This document shows, in pieces, positions 10,631 to 20,826 of a DNA stretch of 64,000 bases; position 1 is the stretch's first letter, and each line of letters begins with the position of its first letter. The translations under genes were made by a program, and so were the position numbers. This DNA comes from Aphanocapsa sp. GSE-SYN-MK-11-07L. Its GTDB lineage: Bacteria > Cyanobacteriota > Cyanobacteriia > Thermosynechococcales > Thermosynechococcaceae. The notes beneath the pieces are model-generated. The model did no database searches. It worked only from the letters and a program-made list of their open reading frames with translations, and was not told where the DNA came from. The stretch lies in assembly GCA_019359715.1 (NCBI GenBank), contig JAHHGS010000139.1, positions 124,001 through 188,000 on the forward strand, given 5' to 3'.

Positions 10631-12526
10631 ATGGCTTCTTCTCACCCGTCCGAGACAACCCCGTCTCCGATCGCCGTTGCCCCCTCACCGCCCTATTTCC
10701 AGCCTCGATCTCAGACGCCAGCCGGAGTAATGAAGCTTGTTTACTGGCTGAAAACCAAACCAGAGGTTCTAACGCTGCTGTTAGTGTTGGCGATTGGCAG
10801 TGCAACTGGACTAGCGATCGTCGGCTTTCATGGTTTGGTCGAGTTTATTCACTATCTCACCCTGGAAGTTCTGATGGGGGCGATCGGCCCGTGGGGGGAC
10901 TGGACTTTGGCGATCGTGCCAATTCTGGGGGGATTGGCGATCGGCTTGATGCGCTGGGGGTGGCGAGACTTTGGTGAGTCTAATCCAACCCATCAGCCTC
11001 CTTCTTTGATCCAAGCTGCGGCCAAACTGGTGGCTGCCTCGATTTCACTGGGGACTGGCGCTTCTTTAGGCCCAGAGGGGCCAAGCGTTGAGGCTGGGGC
11101 CAGCCTGGGGCGTTCGTGGTCGCACTGGTTACGAATGTCTGAAGATCGGCGACAGCTCCTGTTGGGTGCAGGCGCTGCCGCTGGGTTGGCGGCTGGCTTT
11201 AATGCCCCGATCGCCGCCGTCTTTTTGGCGGTAGAACTGTTCTTAAAGACCACCTTCGCCGCCAGTACGGTTGGGTTTGTGTTGTTAGCAGCCGTCGCCG
11301 GGGCGCTGATTACCCAAGTGCTTTTGGGCTGGCAACCCCCCTTCGATCTGCCGGTTTACGATTTTCGCAGCTTTAAGGAATTACCGCTTTATGTTGGCTT
11401 AGGCGGGCTAGCCAGCCTAGTTTCTCAGGTGCTTACCCAAGCGATTAAGCTGGCAGAGCGATTGTTTAAGGGGGAAGTGGCTTGGTTTCAGGTTCCGCCG
11501 CTGTTCAGACCCATTTTGGGAGGGCTATCGGTAGGTTTGGCGGCATTGCTGATGCCGCAGGTTTTAGGCGTGGGCTACGAAACCGTCGAGGCGATTCTCC
11601 GCAATGTCTCGTTTGACTGGCAACTGCTGCTGCTTTTACTGGTCGTCAAACTGGTGATGACAGCCTTGAGTTTGGGCAGCGGGTTAGTCGGAGGCATCTT
11701 TGCCCCAGCCATGTTTTTAGGAGCAGCCCTGGGAGCAGCCTATGGGCAAGCCGTAGCGCTGGTACTCCCCGATGCTTGGCTAGAGATTGCCGCCCCGCCT
11801 GCCTATGCCATGGTCGGGATGGCGGCAGTGCTGGCCAGCACGGTGCGCGCCCCTTTGACGGCGGTGATGCTGCTGTTTGAGCTGACTCGCGACTACCGGA
11901 TCATTTTGCCCTTGATGGCCGCAGTTGGGATCAGCGTTTTATTGGCAGAGAGATGTCAGCTCAAACCGCTCAATCTGCAGCAGATGGGGATGCCGCTGGC
12001 TCGGAATGAAATTCAGGAGATCCTCAGCACGATCCCAGTCACGCAGGCGATGGAGACTGATCCTTTATTTTTGCCAGCCAGCTTGACCCTGTTCGAAGGT
12101 CTAAAACTGCTGTCTAGCCAAGCCACCCACAGTGGATTGGTGATTAATCCGCTCGGAGAACTGGTTGGGGTGATTACCCTTTCAGATTTGAATCGCGCCT
12201 TGGCAAAATACCACAGTCCATCTGAGCCAGTGACCTTGCACCAAATTTGCAGCAAAGCGCTGATTTATGTTTACAGCCATGAGTCTTTGGCAGTGGCGAT
12301 CGCCCGTTTAGCCGGAGGCGGGCTGCACCAGTTGCCCGTCATTGATCAATGCCCTCCCCATGCCGTTCTGGGCTTGGTACGGCTGGAACAAATTACATTG
12401 ACCTATGAATTAGCCTTGAGCGATCGATTGCAAAACCAGTACCTGACTAAGGAGCCGCAGGACTCTCAGTCGGCGCAGCAGGCACTTCCCCTTCCATTGG
12501 CGGTGCCTCACCAGTCCCTGGAATAG
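10631..12526 (+). CDS. ClC-family chloride channel/transporter with C-terminal CBS pair
   Basis: A 631-residue membrane protein that moves chloride, probably in exchange for protons. The ClC core has ten or more helices between about residues 35 and 445. The selectivity and gating motif GTGASLGPEGPS with the gating Glu, the GFNAPIAAVF segment, and the GSGLVGGIFAPAMFLGAALG signature are all present. The C-terminus carries two CBS domains (around 465-520 and 540-590) that usually bind adenosine nucleotides and regulate gating. The last 80 nt overlap the 3' end of the convergent exbD gene. Confidence 0.9.
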   Translation: MASSHPSETTPSPIAVAPSPPYFQPRSQTPAGVMKLVYWLKTKPEVLTLLLVLAIGSATGLAIVGFHGLVEFIHYLTLEVLMGAIGPWGDWTLAIVPILGGLAIGLMRWGWRDFGESNPTHQPPSLIQAAAKLVAASISLGTGASLGPEGPSVEAGASLGRSWSHWLRMSEDRRQLLLGAGAAAGLAAGFNAPIAAVFLAVELFLKTTFAASTVGFVLLAAVAGALITQVLLGWQPPFDLPVYDFRSFKELPLYVGLGGLASLVSQVLTQAIKLAERLFKGEVAWFQVPPLFRPILGGLSVGLAALLMPQVLGVGYETVEAILRNVSFDWQLLLLLLVVKLVMTALSLGSGLVGGIFAPAMFLGAALGAAYGQAVALVLPDAWLEIAAPPAYAMVGMAAVLASTVRAPLTAVMLLFELTRDYRIILPLMAAVGISVLLAERCQLKPLNLQQMGMPLARNEIQEILSTIPVTQAMETDPLFLPASLTLFEGLKLLSSQATHSGLVINPLGELVGVITLSDLNRALAKYHSPSEPVTLHQICSKALIYVYSHESLAVAIARLAGGGLHQLPVIDQCPPHAVLGLVRLEQITLTYELALSDRLQNQYLTKEPQDSQSAQQALPLPLAVPHQSLE

Positions 12527-12998
12527 TTGGTGGAGTTTGCAGGTCAAGCGGCGGCACAGCGCCAGGATTTTGCGGTTCTAAGGTCGGCTTGTTCACAGGT
12601 TGAGTTGCTAGGGCAACCCGCTCGCCCCCGACTGAGCGGAGTAAATCTAGCACCTGCATCACGTCGTTATAGCTATTCAAGGGGGAAGCGTTTAAAACAA
12701 TTAAACCGGCTGGCTTGGTGCGGGTATAACTCAGGAGGAGCTGATAAAGCTGATCTCGACCCACGGGCTGCTTGTCGATGTAGGTTTGCCCAGTCGGATC
12801 AATGCTGACCAACAGCAGCTCTTGGGTCTGGGCAGCGCCAGTGCTCGCTTTCGGTAAATTGAGATTGATCGCCTGTTGGCGAGTTAAATTAACTGCTGCC
12901 AAGATAAAAAACGTTAAAATACAAAAGATGACATCAATCAGGGGGACAATCTCAATTCGAGTGTCTGGGCCTTCAGTTTCCAAGAGGTTAATCTTCAT
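12447..12998 (-). CDS. exbD: ExbD/TolR-type energy-transducing membrane protein
   Basis: Component of the proton-driven ExbB-ExbD motor that energises TonB-dependent uptake or Tol-type envelope functions. A single N-terminal transmembrane helix carries the essential Asp (D22 in PLIDVIFCILTFF), followed by a periplasmic domain with the family ending (VLNASPLNSYNDVMQVLDLLRSVG) and a proline-rich tail of about 40 residues. The gene follows exbB on the same strand with a 115-nt gap. Its last 80 nt overlap the 3' end of the ClC gene on the other strand, within the proline-rich tail. Confidence 0.9.
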   Translation of the reverse strand: MKINLLETEGPDTRIEIVPLIDVIFCILTFFILAAVNLTRQQAINLNLPKASTGAAQTQELLLVSIDPTGQTYIDKQPVGRDQLYQLLLSYTRTKPAGLIVLNASPLNSYNDVMQVLDLLRSVGGERVALATQPVNKPTLEPQNPGAVPPLDLQTPPTIPGTGEAPPMEGEVPAAPTESPAAP

Positions 12999-13113
12999 GG
13001 CGTTGGGGTAAAAATGCAGTGAATGAAGTGCTGCTAAAGATTGAGCTGAAACTTCTCTAAAAACACCGCTAGGCAGAATTTTGGTGTGGTCAATTGGTCT
13101 GAATCTATGTGAT

Positions 13114-13797
13114 CTAATAGTCAGTTTCTTCGGGTTGATCCCATTGCCCCAGCATCGTCATGCTGTTTGACCTAGGTTGCAGCCAGCCTTGGCGATAGGT
13201 GAGTTCAAGTTCGTTGCCCGTGCGCCGAAACATTCTGGCCTGCTGGAATAGGAGGGCTTGAAATAGCCGATAAAACGCTAAGGAAATAATTGCCACGATC
13301 AGACCAGTGGCGGTACTGATCAGGGCTTCACTAATCCCCAGCGTTACTCCAGCCGTGGCCGAGGTGCCAATATCGCCCAAACGAATTGAACTGAGGGAAT
13401 CGATTAACCCCAACACGGTGCCCAATAAGCCCAGCAGTGGAGCGAGGGCGATCGTGGATTCTAGAATCTTATCGCCCCGGCGCATGGCGTTGAGTTCTTC
13501 ATCTGCCGAAGCTTCTAGGGCCAGCCGAAACGTTTCGGGTTCTTTATTAGCCAATTTGAGCGGGGTGTAGAGAAAACGCCCAATCGGTTGGCTGCAGGCT
13601 TGCTTAGCCAAATGAGTTGCTTCTTGCCAATCGCGGCGAGCCGCCTCCAAAATTTGATCCGCCGTTCGGTGTTCTCCCTTCAGGATTGTGCTCCAAAACC
13701 AAAGACGCTCAAAAATAGTGCCCAGGGTGAGTATCGATAGACCCAGGAGGGGCCACATGGCTAAACCACCCTTCTGAAATACATCTGCAATATTCAC
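13114..13797 (-). CDS. exbB: ExbB/TolQ-type proton channel protein
   Basis: A 227-residue MotA/TolQ/ExbB family protein, the pentameric partner of ExbD. It shows an N-terminal transmembrane helix (MWPLLGLSILTLGTIFERL), a long cytoplasmic loop, and two C-terminal helices with ALAPLLGLLGTVLGLIDS and the GISEALISTATGLIVAI segment typical of the family. It is transcribed with exbD. The TonB-like gene at 16910 and this pair, on opposite strands but within 6 kb, probably form one energy-coupling system. Confidence 0.9.
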   Translation of the reverse strand: MNIADVFQKGGLAMWPLLGLSILTLGTIFERLWFWSTILKGEHRTADQILEAARRDWQEATHLAKQACSQPIGRFLYTPLKLANKEPETFRLALEASADEELNAMRRGDKILESTIALAPLLGLLGTVLGLIDSLSSIRLGDIGTSATAGVTLGISEALISTATGLIVAIISLAFYRLFQALLFQQARMFRRTGNELELTYRQGWLQPRSNSMTMLGQWDQPEETDY

Positions 13798-14544: not shown

Positions 14545-15027
14545 ATGAATGAAATTGGGGAGCAACTTGCAGCTAGCACAGAGGCTGCGATCGCGTTTTT
14601 GCAAACTGTGCCTATGTTTGAAGAGATTGACTCAAGCTGTTTGCGATCGCTGGTGGGTGTTTTAGAGCGGGTGCAGTTTGCCCCCAATCAGCAGATTTTT
14701 AAGCAGGGAGAGTCAGGGCATCTGCTTTATATTTTGGTTAGCGGCAGAGTGCACGTGCATATTGACCATTTAACTCTGGCGGAACTGACTCCTGGCCAGG
14801 CGTTTGGCGAAATGGCGGTGTTTGACTCGCAGCCCCGGTCAGCGGCGGTGACTGCCCTCGAAAACTCTGAATGCTGGGTGTTGTCGCAAGCCCAGATTCA
14901 TCAAGTGATTGACCAGAATCCGGCGGTGGCGATCGCCCTGATTAAAGTCTTAGGCGCTCGGCTGCGTCGCTTAATTGGGCTGTTTGCCACGGCGGAAGAT
15001 TTGTTTGCTCTTAAAGCTCAGGCGTAA
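14545..15027 (+). CDS. Cyclic nucleotide-binding domain protein, stand-alone
   Basis: A 160-residue protein that is almost entirely one CNB (Crp-type) domain with no helix-turn-helix. The phosphate-binding cassette reads FGEMAVFDSQPRSAAV with both ligand-contacting residues, Glu (about E89) and Arg (about R98), intact, so cAMP or cGMP binding is likely. ATG 14545 is preferred over an upstream TTG at 14539. A second CNB gene begins 5 nt after its stop, so the two are surely cotranscribed and may have arisen by duplication. Confidence 0.85.
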   Translation: MNEIGEQLAASTEAAIAFLQTVPMFEEIDSSCLRSLVGVLERVQFAPNQQIFKQGESGHLLYILVSGRVHVHIDHLTLAELTPGQAFGEMAVFDSQPRSAAVTALENSECWVLSQAQIHQVIDQNPAVAIALIKVLGARLRRLIGLFATAEDLFALKAQA

Positions 15028-15032
15028 CCTTT

Positions 15033-16076
15033 ATGCTGCTCAGTCAAGCTAATTTGCAAGTTTTACAAACAGTGCCGCTGTTCAGAGATATTGAGCCAGA
15101 TTCGGCCCTGACTCGGCTGGCAGCGAGTCTGCAAGAGGTGAATTTTCCGGCCAATCATCTAATCCTGAAGCAGGGGACAGTCAGCGGCAAACTGTATGTG
15201 CTGTTGACTGGACGTGTGCAAGTCAGAGTTGGCAATGCGCCCCTGACCGTTCTGGGCCCAGGAGCACATTTCGGTGAAATTTCTCTATTTGACGGCCAGC
15301 CGCACTCAGCCTCGATTGTTACTTTAGAACCCAGCACTTGCCTGGTACTTGGCCGTCAGCAAATGCATCAGGCGATCGCTGATTCGCCGGAATTGGGCTT
15401 GAGCCTGATTCGCGGTCTGGTCAGTCGAATTCGCTACCTGAATGAGCGGCTGAGCGCATGGCTGCGCGGTCTGCTCACCGTCGCTTGGGCTGATGGACAC
15501 TACAATACTGAAGAGAAAAAGCTGATTGAGTCTTTGGTCAAAGACCTTTGCCCCCAGGCAGATCTGGGGACGCTGCCCACGATTGACGGCCCAGAATTGG
15601 CTGAGTTATTTAGACCCGATCCGGCAGCGGCAGAAAACTTTTTGCGGGCTGCCATGATCGTCGCTTTGGCCAACGGAACTTACTCGGAGCCAGAAGACAG
15701 GGTGTTGAGAAACTTTGCGAGAGCTTTGGGGCTAAGCACAGATGTTCTGGATGCCTTGCAGGTAATTTTGATTGCCAACAATCAACCGACAGTCAACCTA
15801 CCAGACCACCATACCCTGGATGTTTTGCATCCGGTGCGAGAGTGGCTGGATGAAATGGTCATTGACTCCCCTGCGACAGCCCGCTTCTTGTGCAAGCTGA
15901 TTCCATCTCAGTGCCCTTTCGAGCGAGATGTTGTTCTATTTGGTCACAAGATTATACACATTCCGCCCATGTGTAAGCTCAATCCGCTTTACGAGCAATT
16001 AGTAGGGCTACGCTTTCGGGCTCTCAGCTATCTGGCAGATGTCTGCAAAGAAGATATTTCTGCTTATTTAACTTAA
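15033..16076 (+). CDS. CNB domain fused to TerB-like and Mo-nitrogenase C-terminal-like domains
   Basis: A 347-residue three-part protein. Residues 1-135 form a CNB domain in which the phosphate-cassette arginine is replaced (FGEISLFDGQPHSASI, H91), so nucleotide binding is doubtful. Residues 145-245 look like a TerB-type helical domain with two acidic DG/NG motifs (WADGHYNTEEKKLIES and LANGTYSEPEDRVLRN). Residues 258-345 match the Mo-dependent nitrogenase C-terminus family: FLCKLIPSQCPFERD, IPPMCKLNPLYEQLVGLRFR and four cysteines (287, 294, 314, 338). That family occurs in cyanobacterial proteins that are not nitrogenase subunits. It directly follows a catalytically intact CNB gene. Function unknown. 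Confidence 0.8.
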   Translation: MLLSQANLQVLQTVPLFRDIEPDSALTRLAASLQEVNFPANHLILKQGTVSGKLYVLLTGRVQVRVGNAPLTVLGPGAHFGEISLFDGQPHSASIVTLEPSTCLVLGRQQMHQAIADSPELGLSLIRGLVSRIRYLNERLSAWLRGLLTVAWADGHYNTEEKKLIESLVKDLCPQADLGTLPTIDGPELAELFRPDPAAAENFLRAAMIVALANGTYSEPEDRVLRNFARALGLSTDVLDALQVILIANNQPTVNLPDHHTLDVLHPVREWLDEMVIDSPATARFLCKLIPSQCPFERDVVLFGHKIIHIPPMCKLNPLYEQLVGLRFRALSYLADVCKEDISAYLT

Positions 16077-16155: not shown

Positions 16156-16773
16156 ATGCTGAATGGATTTACAGCCGGGCTACTGCTGATTACAGTTTCA
16201 GAGTTAGGCGATAAAAGCTTTTTTATTGTCATGTTGCTGGCGATGCGCCATCCCCGCCACTGGGTTTTCATTGGGGCGATCGCCGCTTTGAGCCTGATGA
16301 CTGTGGTGTCGGTGCTGATGGGGAAAGCTATTCGCCTGCTGCCCCAAGCTTACACGCACTACGGAGCGATCGCTCTGTTCTGTTTGTTTGGACTGAAATT
16401 GCTTTGGGATGCGAGCCAAATGCCTGCCCACGCTGAAGCAGCAGAGGTGGCGGCAGCAACTGTGGCGGTCGAGCAAGCGGATGCCAAACTTGCAAAAACG
16501 GCCGGGGCGAGAGCGATCATCTTAGAAGCCGCCGGACTAACTTTTTTGACCGAATGGGGCGATCGCACTCAATTGGCGACCATCACGCTAGCCGCTGCCA
16601 ATCACCCAATTGGGGTGACGGCTGGGGCTATTTTGGGGCATGCAATCTGTACCCTGATCGCGATTGTAGGTGGCTCATTCGTGGCTGGACGGATTTCTGA
16701 GCGGTTGGTGACCGCGATCGGGGGTGGATTGTTTTTAGTGTTTGGCTTTCTAACTTGGCAGGAAAGGCTATAG
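16156..16773 (+). CDS. mnx: GDT1/UPF0016 manganese exporter, Mnx-like
   Basis: A 205-residue membrane protein of the TMEM165/GDT1 family, which move Mn2+ or Ca2+ against protons. Both signature motifs are present: ELGDKS at residues 16-21 and EWGDRT at 133-138. Each precedes a three-helix bundle, and a charged, alanine-rich linker (about 88-118) separates the halves. The length matches the cyanobacterial thylakoid Mn exporter (Mnx, relative of plant PAM71). The gene symbol is inferred from length and motif; a second GDT1 paralogue may exist elsewhere. Confidence 0.87.
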   Translation: MLNGFTAGLLLITVSELGDKSFFIVMLLAMRHPRHWVFIGAIAALSLMTVVSVLMGKAIRLLPQAYTHYGAIALFCLFGLKLLWDASQMPAHAEAAEVAAATVAVEQADAKLAKTAGARAIILEAAGLTFLTEWGDRTQLATITLAAANHPIGVTAGAILGHAICTLIAIVGGSFVAGRISERLVTAIGGGLFLVFGFLTWQERL

Positions 16774-16909
16774 CCTGCGTTGCTGTGCTGGCTATCATTG
16801 CCGCTGCGATCGCATATCTAAATCAGATACGCTGCTCAACACTGATTTGGGATTGGTATATGCTGGAGTTCGTTAGCCTGTCGCTCGATTGCACTCACTG
16901 CTCCAGGAT

Positions 16910-18121
16910 ATGACCAGCATCATCAAAATTCTACCCGATCAACCCCCCCAGCCCAATCGGCTGGCGATCGTCGTGTCAGTTGGGTTTCATGCCCTCGTGT
17001 TTGGTGCGCTGGCCTTAGCTCCTAAAAGCCCAATCCCTGATGATCAAAAGCTGGTCAATCTGGTTACTCTGTCGCCAGAGGAGCAGGGTCGCTTGCCTTC
17101 CTTTGCTAACCCAACCGCCCCAACTCCTGGCAATTCAAAGGCGATCGCCCCGCCCAGTTCGGCCCTGGCTCCACCCGCCGTCAGTAATTTTGACTTTAGC
17201 GCTTTGCCACCGCTCCAAATGCCAGATATTCCATTGCCGCCCCCGCCGGTCTATGTGCCGCCCCCAGAGGTTTATTTACCCCCAGCCCGGGACTACGTTG
17301 TTACTCAACCTCGCCGAGATTTTTCCCCGCCGCCACTGCCCGAAACTCCGCCCCAGCCCGACGTGATGGAATCTCCGGTGCCGCCCCTCCCGCCAGAGGT
17401 GTTGCAGCCAAGTCCTTCCCCCACGGCGATACCTGATGTTAGCCCTGGGCGGCAAGTCTATTTCGGTGAAATTTCGCAGTGGTTTGTCCAAGCCCGGGCC
17501 ACCATCAACTCAGAGAACATTCGCCCCACTTTAAACGCACAAGCGCCCCCTTACCCCTATCCCCCCGCCGCCTGTCAGGATAAATTGCAGGGCAGGGCAT
17601 CTGTAATCGCGTTAGTTAGCCCAGAGGGCAAATTAGTTCAGCCACCCAAACCAGAGCAGGGTTCAGAAGCTGCTCCAGTCAACACGCTGAAAGAAAATCC
17701 GCAAATTATTCTGAGTACGAAGCATGAGTTGCTAGACCAAGCGGCGATCGCGGCGGTAGAGGAAATCAAGTTTGAGCCGTCGAAAAATTATCAGGCGTTG
17801 ATGTACACGTTTAACTACGAGTATTCAGATGCCGTCTGTGCCCAGGCACCCCAACCTTCTCCCTCGCCCCAGACCTCACCTTCGCCAGGTGCTTCTTCCC
17901 CCGAAGCCTCTCCTTCACCTCAGCCAACTTCTACCGTCGCTCCAACTCTAAACGGCAGCCCTACTCCACCAGAGGCGGAACCTACCCCATCCCCCAGTCC
18001 GGAAACACCTCCCGCCGATAGCTCCAGTCCAGCAGATGAAACGCCAGCCCCCACTCCATCAGCTCCTGAACCGGAAGCAAGCCCATCGCCAACATTTGTC
18101 CCATCCCGCCCGCTTCGTTAG
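16910..18121 (+). CDS. TonB-like energy transducer with proline-rich linker and tail
   Basis: A 403-residue protein. ATG 16910 precedes a single N-terminal membrane anchor (LAIVVSVGFHALVFGALALA). A long proline-rich stretch (about 60-190) would span the periplasm. A C-terminal TonB-like domain (GRASVIALVSPEGKLVQ to AAIAAVEEIKFEPSKNYQA) follows at about 220-315. Beyond it lies a further tail of about 90 residues made of Pro, Ser, Thr, Glu and Ala. The exbB-exbD pair nearby supports a TonB role; the distal tail is unusual because the TonB domain normally ends the protein. Confidence 0.75.
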   Translation: MTSIIKILPDQPPQPNRLAIVVSVGFHALVFGALALAPKSPIPDDQKLVNLVTLSPEEQGRLPSFANPTAPTPGNSKAIAPPSSALAPPAVSNFDFSALPPLQMPDIPLPPPPVYVPPPEVYLPPARDYVVTQPRRDFSPPPLPETPPQPDVMESPVPPLPPEVLQPSPSPTAIPDVSPGRQVYFGEISQWFVQARATINSENIRPTLNAQAPPYPYPPAACQDKLQGRASVIALVSPEGKLVQPPKPEQGSEAAPVNTLKENPQIILSTKHELLDQAAIAAVEEIKFEPSKNYQALMYTFNYEYSDAVCAQAPQPSPSPQTSPSPGASSPEASPSPQPTSTVAPTLNGSPTPPEAEPTPSPSPETPPADSSSPADETPAPTPSAPEPEASPSPTFVPSRPLR

Positions 18122-18155: not shown

Positions 18156-20633
18156 CTAGTCGATTTGCCCAATCAAGACAAAGCCAGCCCAGTTGCGGGG
18201 ATTCGGGTCTTGCTTGATCATGGTCAACATCGCTTGCCGAAGCGCTTGGGCTTTATCGAGCTTTTGGTGCTGACGCTGGCGATAAAACTCTGTCATTAAT
18301 TGGGCTGTGGGCAGGTCAGGCACAGCCCACAGCGAAACTACAACGCTGTTTACCCCAGCCGACATCAGCGATCGGGCCAGTCCAACCACGCCATCGCCAG
18401 TGATTTTGCCCCGCCCAGTATCGCAGGCACTCAGCACCGCCAAGTCAGCCTGCAACTTTAAATCTAGAATTTCAGCCGCTGTCAGTAGCCCATTGTGCTG
18501 TTGATCGGCAACAAAAGCCAAGGAGCTATTGAGTCCTTCTTGACCATCAAGCAGCCCGTGGGTGGCTAGGTGAATTAAGCTGGCTTGCGACATTTGCTGC
18601 AACACTTCCGTCTCAGTTGCCTTCCTCCCAATTAATGGCTGAGCATTTAGCATCTGAGCGATCGCCTTTGCTTCCTGTTCAGCCGCAGGCAGGGGCGATA
18701 GTCCGACTGGCATTGGGGTTGGGTTGCCGACAATCAGAGCCAACTTGGTTGCAGTCGAACGCGGCTTGCTCAAGGCCAGCACTTGAATCGCCGGCGCGAT
18801 CGACAGGGTATGTTTTTCGATCAAAAATTGACCTGACGCATCTTGAAGGGCAGCAAAGGGCACCAGAAATAGCGCTCCTTGCGGAATAAAAATGATCCGA
18901 GCCTTGGGGTCGGTGGGCAGCAACTCCGCGATCGGTTGAATCAGCAGTTCATAACTGTTGCGGGCGGAAGTAAACATGGGCTGAGACGTTGATTCAAGCA
19001 GGCTTCCCCGCAGTGAAACAACTAAGTCTGAGATCAGCGGTTGAGATTGATCTTGACCAGCCGCCACCGCAGCTCGGGCTTGGCGGGCTAGCTTGTTGAG
19101 CGAAACTGCCTGATTATTCTTCAGCGCCTTCAAATCTATCCGCCGAAAGTTGATGTCTCCGGCTGGACTGACCACCCAAATATAAAGGTCAGTTTCTTGA
19201 CCTGCCCGATCTTGGAGCAGGGAATAGGTGACTAGGGTTGCTTGCTGCTGCTTGGCGATCGCCTGAATGGCAGCGACTGTGGGCGGAGCTTCTTGCCTTG
19301 GCAGCGGCGAGTTTGATAAACGCTGGGCCAGCAATTCAACAAAGGCTCTGCCCCGTCCCCGCTCGGCGGCGACCAAGGCCTCTGCCTGCCGATTTTGGCT
19401 GACTAGGGTTTTCTGAAATAGCCCGTAGGTGTAGGTCTGGGTTTCAAATAGGGAAATTTTTTGCTCATCCCGCAGCCCTGGCCGTAATTGCTCAAACGCG
19501 TCTAGACTAGCTTGCAGGGCTTGCGTTGCCCGCTCCGATTGTCCTGACTCTAACAGCGTTTCCCCCAGCCCACTCAGCGCTTTGGCTTCACCAACTCGAT
19601 CGCCGTTTTTTCTGGCCCAGGCCAAAGCCTGCTCATAGAAGTCGATCGCTTGTGCATACTGCTGAAGCTGGCGGTAGTAGTTGCCCAAATTGGTGAAAGT
19701 CAGTGCCCGCCCAGTGCCATTAATCAATCGCGTGGTTGCCAGCGCCTGCTGTAAGTAATCAAGTGCCGGCTGAGTCTGACCCTGTTTTAGATAAGCACGG
19801 CTGAGGTTGTTGAGCAGATAAACTCTGCCTGTGCTATCGCCTAACCCACTGATTATCGACAGCGCTTCTTGATAGGAACTGAGGGCTGCCTCAAACTGAG
19901 ATAGCTCTTGGTAGGCTAGTCCCAAACTGCTAAGGGTGCGGGCTGCACCTAGGCGATCGCCGACGGAGCGGCGAATCGCCAGCGCTTGCTGGTAATAATC
20001 TTGCGCTTGCTTATATTCACCCAGATTAAATTGCACATCGCCAATTGCTTGCAGGGCCCAGCCTCGGTCAAACGGGTCGTTAGCGGCTCTTTGAGCTAAC
20101 TCAAGATACTGTAAGGCTTTAGTGTATCCGCCCAAATAGTGGTAGGTTTCGCCCAAGGCAATCCGGGTGCGATTTTCGGCTGCAATATCCCGCAGTTGGC
20201 TGCCCTCAGCCCGCTGCAACTGCTGGAGCGCTTGCCAGTAGTCTCCCTGTTGGAGATAAACCATCCCTTTCAGGCTTGAGCGCTGCCCCTGCTGCTGGAA
20301 ATTGCTGGGGAACTGCTCAGCTTGCTGTAAAGCTTGGAGAGCTTGTGGATAGCGCCCCTGCCGATAGTAAGCGAGTCCGAGCTGCGTCAGTGTTGCTTGC
20401 TGCCCTTGCGGGTCGGCCTGCGATTTGTAAAGCTGCAATACTTGCTCTAGTTTTTGTTCGGCAATCCCCGGTGAGCCAATCCGCAACATTTCAACCGCAG
20501 ACTTGAATTGACGGTCTGCCTCGGTTGCTGACGTTTGGGCGATCGCTGGCAGCGGGGGCTGGAGTGGGTTTAACCCGACTAAGCTGGGGGTAAGCAGCAA
20601 CCCTAAACACAGGGAAGTTCGGAGCGATCGCAT
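18156..20633 (-). CDS. Secreted TPR-CHAT domain protein (caspase-like fold)
   Basis: From ATG 20633 the protein is 825 residues; a GTG at 20657 would add eight. An AAAGG sequence five bases upstream and a signal peptide (SLCLGLLLTPSLVGL, then PAIAQ) support the ATG. About ten TPR repeats fill residues 40-400 (for example ALQYLELAQRAANDP, AQDYYQQALAIRRSVGD). The C-terminal CHAT domain has the catalytic His in LIHLATHG (about H692) and Cys in LSACDTG (about C737), as in caspase-related peptidases. Export to the periplasm is predicted. It is convergent with the TonB-like gene. Substrate unknown. Confidence 0.9.
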   Translation of the reverse strand: MRSLRTSLCLGLLLTPSLVGLNPLQPPLPAIAQTSATEADRQFKSAVEMLRIGSPGIAEQKLEQVLQLYKSQADPQGQQATLTQLGLAYYRQGRYPQALQALQQAEQFPSNFQQQGQRSSLKGMVYLQQGDYWQALQQLQRAEGSQLRDIAAENRTRIALGETYHYLGGYTKALQYLELAQRAANDPFDRGWALQAIGDVQFNLGEYKQAQDYYQQALAIRRSVGDRLGAARTLSSLGLAYQELSQFEAALSSYQEALSIISGLGDSTGRVYLLNNLSRAYLKQGQTQPALDYLQQALATTRLINGTGRALTFTNLGNYYRQLQQYAQAIDFYEQALAWARKNGDRVGEAKALSGLGETLLESGQSERATQALQASLDAFEQLRPGLRDEQKISLFETQTYTYGLFQKTLVSQNRQAEALVAAERGRGRAFVELLAQRLSNSPLPRQEAPPTVAAIQAIAKQQQATLVTYSLLQDRAGQETDLYIWVVSPAGDINFRRIDLKALKNNQAVSLNKLARQARAAVAAGQDQSQPLISDLVVSLRGSLLESTSQPMFTSARNSYELLIQPIAELLPTDPKARIIFIPQGALFLVPFAALQDASGQFLIEKHTLSIAPAIQVLALSKPRSTATKLALIVGNPTPMPVGLSPLPAAEQEAKAIAQMLNAQPLIGRKATETEVLQQMSQASLIHLATHGLLDGQEGLNSSLAFVADQQHNGLLTAAEILDLKLQADLAVLSACDTGRGKITGDGVVGLARSLMSAGVNSVVVSLWAVPDLPTAQLMTEFYRQRQHQKLDKAQALRQAMLTMIKQDPNPRNWAGFVLIGQID

Positions 20634-20826
20634 ATGAGCCTTTAATCTACCAATCACTTTGCCCAGCTTAAGTTCAAACCACTAGAGCAATTGTGATTTG
20701 CGTCGCTGCTCTGACAGGCAAGCTTACGCTGATAATCTTGGCTCAAAAATTCTCGGTTTTCTTAAATTATTACCCGTTGAAGACCACGACTAAAGTTTGA
20801 TAAGTTTGATATGATGAGTTTTGCCT

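Follow-up and report, generated by a model that had tools for sequence, protein, structure and literature searches.

Two adjacent genes on the forward strand of the analyzed window, the whole 64,000-nucleotide stretch of Aphanocapsa sp. GSE-SYN-MK-11-07L DNA, encode a small protein with a single cyclic-nucleotide-binding domain (CNB1) and a fusion protein in which a second such domain (CNB2) precedes a TerB-like domain and a Pfam Mo-nitro_C (PF06967) domain, for which we use the label MoC. The features of the locus and its flanks are as follows, in window coordinates.

12447-13797, reverse strand: ExbB/ExbD pair on the upstream side of the module (Pfam)
14545-15027, forward strand: CNB1, a CNB-only protein of 160 aa and the upstream partner of the fusion (Pfam cNMP_binding at residues 43-125, E=9e-22)
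14836-14838, forward strand: phosphate-binding-cassette arginine of CNB1 (QPRSA), residue 98, equivalent to R100 in 162-aa numbering (Arg in 13 of 13 partner proteins)
15033-16076, forward strand: CNB2-TerB-MoC fusion protein, 347 aa (Pfam; full-length relatives)
15138-15383, forward strand: CNB2 domain, residues 36-117 (Pfam cNMP_binding, E=1e-19; CRP and cGMP-kinase structures related in sequence and fold)
15303-15305, forward strand: His 91 of CNB2, replacing the phosphate-binding arginine (QPHSAS; His in 13 of 13 fusions)
15447-15770, forward strand: TerB-like helical domain, residues ~139-246, with acidic motifs WADGHYNTEE (152-161) and LANGTYSEPE (212-221) (Pfam TerB, E=1.8e-9)
15822-16067, forward strand: MoC domain, residues 264-345 (Pfam, E=1.3e-40)
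15891-16046, forward strand: candidate metal or redox site formed by C287, C294, H309, C314, and C338 (conservation)
16156-16773, forward strand: divalent cation/proton antiporter of the GDT1 family, 80 bases past the fusion (Pfam)
16889-18121, forward strand: TonB-like protein on the other side of the module (Pfam)
18156-20657, reverse strand: TPR and CHAT domain protein, 833 aa

The fusion is read from a single ATG-initiated open frame, in which the coordinates, the two peptides (FLCKLIPSQCPFERD and NPLYEQLVGLRFR), and the four C-terminal cysteines given by the first-pass annotation are all present; the cysteines are residues 287, 294, 314, and 338, with two more, 103 and 173, elsewhere in the protein. 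The same annotation had assigned CNB, TerB-like, and Mo-nitrogenase C-terminal-like domains to this one frame and had suggested matching each to profiles separately, and all three indeed exceed the Pfam curated cut-offs: the fusion scores 70.7 bits for cNMP_binding (PF00027, cut-off 27.5; CNB1 scores 77.3 bits), 38.3 bits for TerB (PF05099, cut-off 24.4), and 137.7 bits for Mo-nitro_C (cut-off 27), with the C-terminal match covering profile positions 1-82 of 83. The TerB match is divided into two stretches, the best at residues 191-237. Two acidic DG/NG motifs had also been proposed for this region, and the second is indeed an NG motif, having Asn instead of Asp (LANG...E versus WADG...E). D154, E161, and E221 are retained in core relatives, and W143, D154, G155, E161, G215, and E221 are invariant in an alignment of 66 standalone TerB-MoC relatives. 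A literature search turned up no described function for the CNB-TerB-MoC domain order, in agreement with the earlier statement that none was known.

The CNB1 gene, which is absent from the first-pass annotation, stops 5 bases before the start of the fusion. A CNB-only gene is found immediately upstream of the fusion, on the same strand, in all 13 genomes that carry the fusion, and in seven of these the start of the fusion overlaps the stop of CNB1 by 4 bp, which fits coupled translation of the two partners. The flanking genes vary (mfd upstream in one family; ndk, GNAT, and others elsewhere), and no neighbor beyond CNB1 is conserved beside the fusion in the 13 genomes; the conserved unit is therefore the gene pair and not its neighborhood. 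In a tree of CNB domains with several long and poorly supported branches, the CNB1s cluster together, as do the CNB2s, suggesting that the pair has remained a pair. Upstream of the pair here lies a gene for a DUF1232 protein (Pfam). The GDT1 antiporter had been considered as a functional clue pointing to manganese, and was dropped because its position next to the pair is not conserved elsewhere. A scan for promoters and terminators at the locus gave nothing useful.

The count of genomes with this domain order, which had also been suggested at the first pass, comes to 13: the source genome and 12 of 391 genomes of another order. The source genome is the sole carrier among 29 genomes of its own order and among a 390-genome sample of the class; the first further example came from Phormidium sp. 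LEGE 05292 in a scan of named genomes, and it is the order of this organism that yields the 12. Two of these are shortened by contig ends, and the other ten are full-length and 55-62% identical to the fusion here, which rules out an assembly error as its origin. The fusions are monophyletic. In a tree of the TerB-MoC part, the first four formed one clade (support 100/99) that is separated from the standalone copies found in the source organism's own family, and the same support was obtained with 11 fusions, the copy of the source genome being sister to the rest. The tree thus gives no support to a vertical origin from the standalone gene of the family. As the fusions form one clade and no standalone TerB-MoC was found in the source genome, the pair has probably moved between lineages and displaced an ungated copy, or else is an old paralogue retained in a few lineages; the differing flanks, together with the separation of the fusion clade from the family copies, fit a mobile unit. 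The local G+C content shows no step around the pair and gives no hint on the direction of transfer.

The unusual part of the protein is the N-terminal CNB fusion, TerB-MoC itself being common. Indeed, TerB-MoC is a near-universal protein of oxygenic cyanobacteria, normally without a sensor domain. Apart from the fusion here, the top-ranked matches, among 58 relatives and then among the 390 class genomes, cover the TerB-MoC part only. These standalone frames of ~212-300 aa, mostly 220-260 aa, share the domains, their order, and the cysteines of the fusion at 44-61% identity but have no CNB domain, and a literature search found no description of their function. Of the 29 genomes of the source organism's family, 25 have the TerB-MoC part by E-value, the fusion here counted as one, and many small genomes (1.6-2.8 Mb) of one family in the 390-genome sample, which their size suggests are probably picocyanobacteria, have no TerB-MoC match. 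In a sample of the phylum, the MoC domain was detected in 21 of 21 genomes of the oxygenic class and in none of the 38 other members, bearing out the earlier statement that the Mo-nitrogenase C-terminus family occurs separately from nitrogenase; among 14 control genomes it was found in Synechococcus elongatus alone. The source genome also contains two MoC-only frames of 97 and 138 aa, which have neither TerB nor CNB and keep the four cysteines.

In the CNB domains of CRP and of kinases, an arginine of the phosphate-binding cassette holds the cyclic phosphate. The cassette reads FGE...RSA in 13 of 13 CNB1 proteins and FGE...HS in 13 of 13 fused CNB2 domains, and of 16 further related cyanobacterial CNB genes in the alignment, 15 have arginine at this position, the exception being locus L077. 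Because the arginine is kept in CNB1 and replaced by histidine in CNB2, the CNB1 pocket looks competent and the CNB2 pocket altered, judging from the aligned sequences. The best solved relatives of the CNB, in both sequence and fold searches, are cAMP or cGMP binders. The pair has no cyclase gene as a constant neighbor, and class III nucleotide cyclase domains occur in all seven fusion genomes tested (3 here and 12-35 in the others), which makes a cyclic-nucleotide ligand plausible.

In the MoC domain, C287, C294, H309, and C314 are shared by all 66 standalone relatives, 61 of which also have C338, and all five residues are present in 11 of 11 full fusions. This near-invariance of four cysteines and a histidine suggests a metal or redox site, which we consider likely; the four-cysteine site is not absolute, since the relative at locus L123 lacks C287 and C338 and that at L035 lacks C338. 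No solved structure resembling MoC was found by sequence or by fold search. In structure models, which rest on shallow alignments of the window sequence and related loci, MoC alone is predicted to form a helix-helix-hairpin-helix arrangement with a mean pLDDT of 75.5 and a weak loop just past C294, and the whole fusion reaches a middling mean pLDDT of 64.9, with residues 294-315 of the MoC loop poorly modeled and a single predicted helix, 119-151, extending from CNB2 into the TerB region.

We propose, with a probability of about 0.5, that the locus is a two-gene, probably horizontally mobile module that places TerB-MoC under cyclic-nucleotide control through a pair of CNB domains. The effector would be TerB-MoC, here with CNB2 at its N-terminus and co-produced with the CNB-only protein CNB1. 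CNB1, with its arginine intact, would bind the cyclic nucleotide, most likely cAMP, and would pair with the fused CNB2 through long C-helices of the CRP type. A ligand-driven shift could then travel along the C-helix of CNB2 directly into the TerB bundle and alter what TerB-MoC binds. CNB2, with histidine for arginine, would probably bind ligand weakly, bind another ligand, or serve as dimer partner alone, while MoC would contribute the putative cysteine/histidine site for a metal or redox function and TerB two acidic motifs for a divalent metal. A more far-reaching proposal, tentative and somewhat doubtful, is that the pair represents an undescribed cyanobacterial second-messenger system, in which a heteromeric receptor with one active and one degenerate CNB gates a near-universal cysteine-site protein, and that this two-gene cassette spread between orders and replaced the host's ungated copy. 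A natural fusion to a signaling domain offers a handle on the widespread TerB-MoC protein, as the ligand of CNB1 and its effect would provide a first functional clue, and the constant Arg/His split lends itself to a sharp and cheap mutational test.

The closest known systems share only parts of this architecture. CRP/FNR transcription factors, which are the best matches by fold and among the best by sequence, have the CNB fold with its C-helix in common with the fusion, but their helix-turn-helix is replaced by TerB-MoC (no HTH match in Pfam). Of 15 other loci, 9 have a related CNB-only gene directly after a gene for a protein of ~1000 aa, in which Pfam matches the HEAT repeats (the HEAT part alone) and whose N-terminus we read as transporter-like. 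This gene order is the point of likeness to the cyanobacterial operons in which a cNBD comes after NTT-HEAT or is fused to it (PMC5381601), whereas here the CNB is partnered by TerB-MoC, and CNB1 and CNB2 form groups of their own. The source genome contains no NTT-HEAT gene (best match 19 bits), and the neighbors are instead the DUF1232 and GDT1 genes. Since related CNB-only genes follow transporter-HEAT genes, the CNB domain may have been recruited from an NTT-HEAT-associated source, a point that the tree does not show firmly.

The gating role proposed for the CNB pair has to be weighed against the possibility that the domain is a dimerization or scaffold module without cyclic-nucleotide sensing, which would form a stable heteromer and position TerB-MoC in the cell. 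The loss of the phosphate-binding arginine from CNB2 in all 13 fusions counts in favor of such a module, and the standalone effector does without a CNB domain in most cyanobacteria. However, a pure scaffold need not preserve the cassette, and CNB1 has kept it in 13 of 13 cases; we consider this reading fairly unlikely.

A role of the core TerB-MoC protein in ribosome assembly or translation, a step that the fusion would render cyclic-nucleotide-responsive, is suggested by gene order: of 66 core loci, 16, spread over several families, have the gene immediately before obgE, and 11, all of one family, have it immediately before rimO. Yet neither gene is found at the other 39 loci or near the fusion, the rimO loci are closely related, and gene neighborhood is weak as evidence, so that we judge this role distinctly unlikely and take the adjacency as a lead towards ribosome maturation, no more. 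Examples of the standalone loci concerned are L083, L046, L063, L098, L020, L050, L115, and L035.

Taken at face value, the Pfam name would make the fusion a nitrogenase- or molybdenum-related regulator, and the first-pass annotation had likewise thought of coupling to a nitrogen-related process. The evidence speaks against both; a metal-related process, the other possibility named there, may still apply, the cysteines and a histidine of MoC being nearly invariant. The source genome, 99.5% complete, contains no nifH over the family cut-off, and its best match, at 216 bits versus 394, is what we would expect of a protochlorophyllide reductase relative. Within the family, nifH exceeds the cut-off in only 2 of the 29 genomes, compared with the 25 that have TerB-MoC (once as the fusion); in the class it is found in 110 of 390 genomes. 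Neither Pfam nor NCBIfam gives a match to a nitrogenase catalytic subunit in the fusion protein. TerB-MoC occurs in nearly all oxygenic cyanobacteria, the sampled cellular genomes gave no MoC outside this group, and the family name is misleading. It seems to derive from the nif position of all1439, a MoC paralogue flanked by nifE and nifK in Anabaena (PMC2821919). In addition, MoC-annotated genes other than this one, alr1713 and NSP_RS06835, reportedly respond to nitrogen or phosphate in their expression, following carbon/nitrogen or phosphate status. The MoC-only paralogues (all1439, alr1713, and the 97- and 138-aa frames here) have the MoC domain in common with the fusion, but the two in the source genome lack TerB and CNB, all1439 belongs to a nif cluster, and the nif-linked members are not established as the TerB-MoC form. 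With no nifH here and MoC in every oxygenic-class genome of the phylum sample, the nitrogenase link of the fusion was rejected as highly improbable.

Least probable of all is a Pycsar-like anti-phage effector in which the CNB receptor triggers a toxic output: the CNBs of both proteins match PADLOC models for PycTIR and Pycsar effectors (E=1e-13 and 1e-18), but the match is confined to the CNB, the neighbors in the window and in relatives, inspected by eye and with Pfam, include neither a TIR or membrane effector nor an adjacent cyclase, and the effector part is near-universal in cyanobacteria, unlike a patchy toxin.

A few further MoC sequences deserve mention. The cyanophage S-TIM5 and three phages like it (JQ245707.2 and OP053360-OP053362), whose hosts are marine Synechococcus, carry a gene for a MoC-domain protein annotated as hypothetical; it is 37-41% identical over 51 residues, and the S-TIM5 protein is the best fold match in a viral library. 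The divergent, high-G+C TerB-MoC relative at L123, from an IMG/VR contig, is 43% identical, and since the frames nearby are not clearly phage-like, the contig may be host DNA rather than phage. In a Nostocaceae metagenome-assembled genome (L037:8001-8375), a MoC copy is broken by a stop-containing stretch with a KRGKRGKREKRGKRG repeat, as if by insertion of a repeat element.
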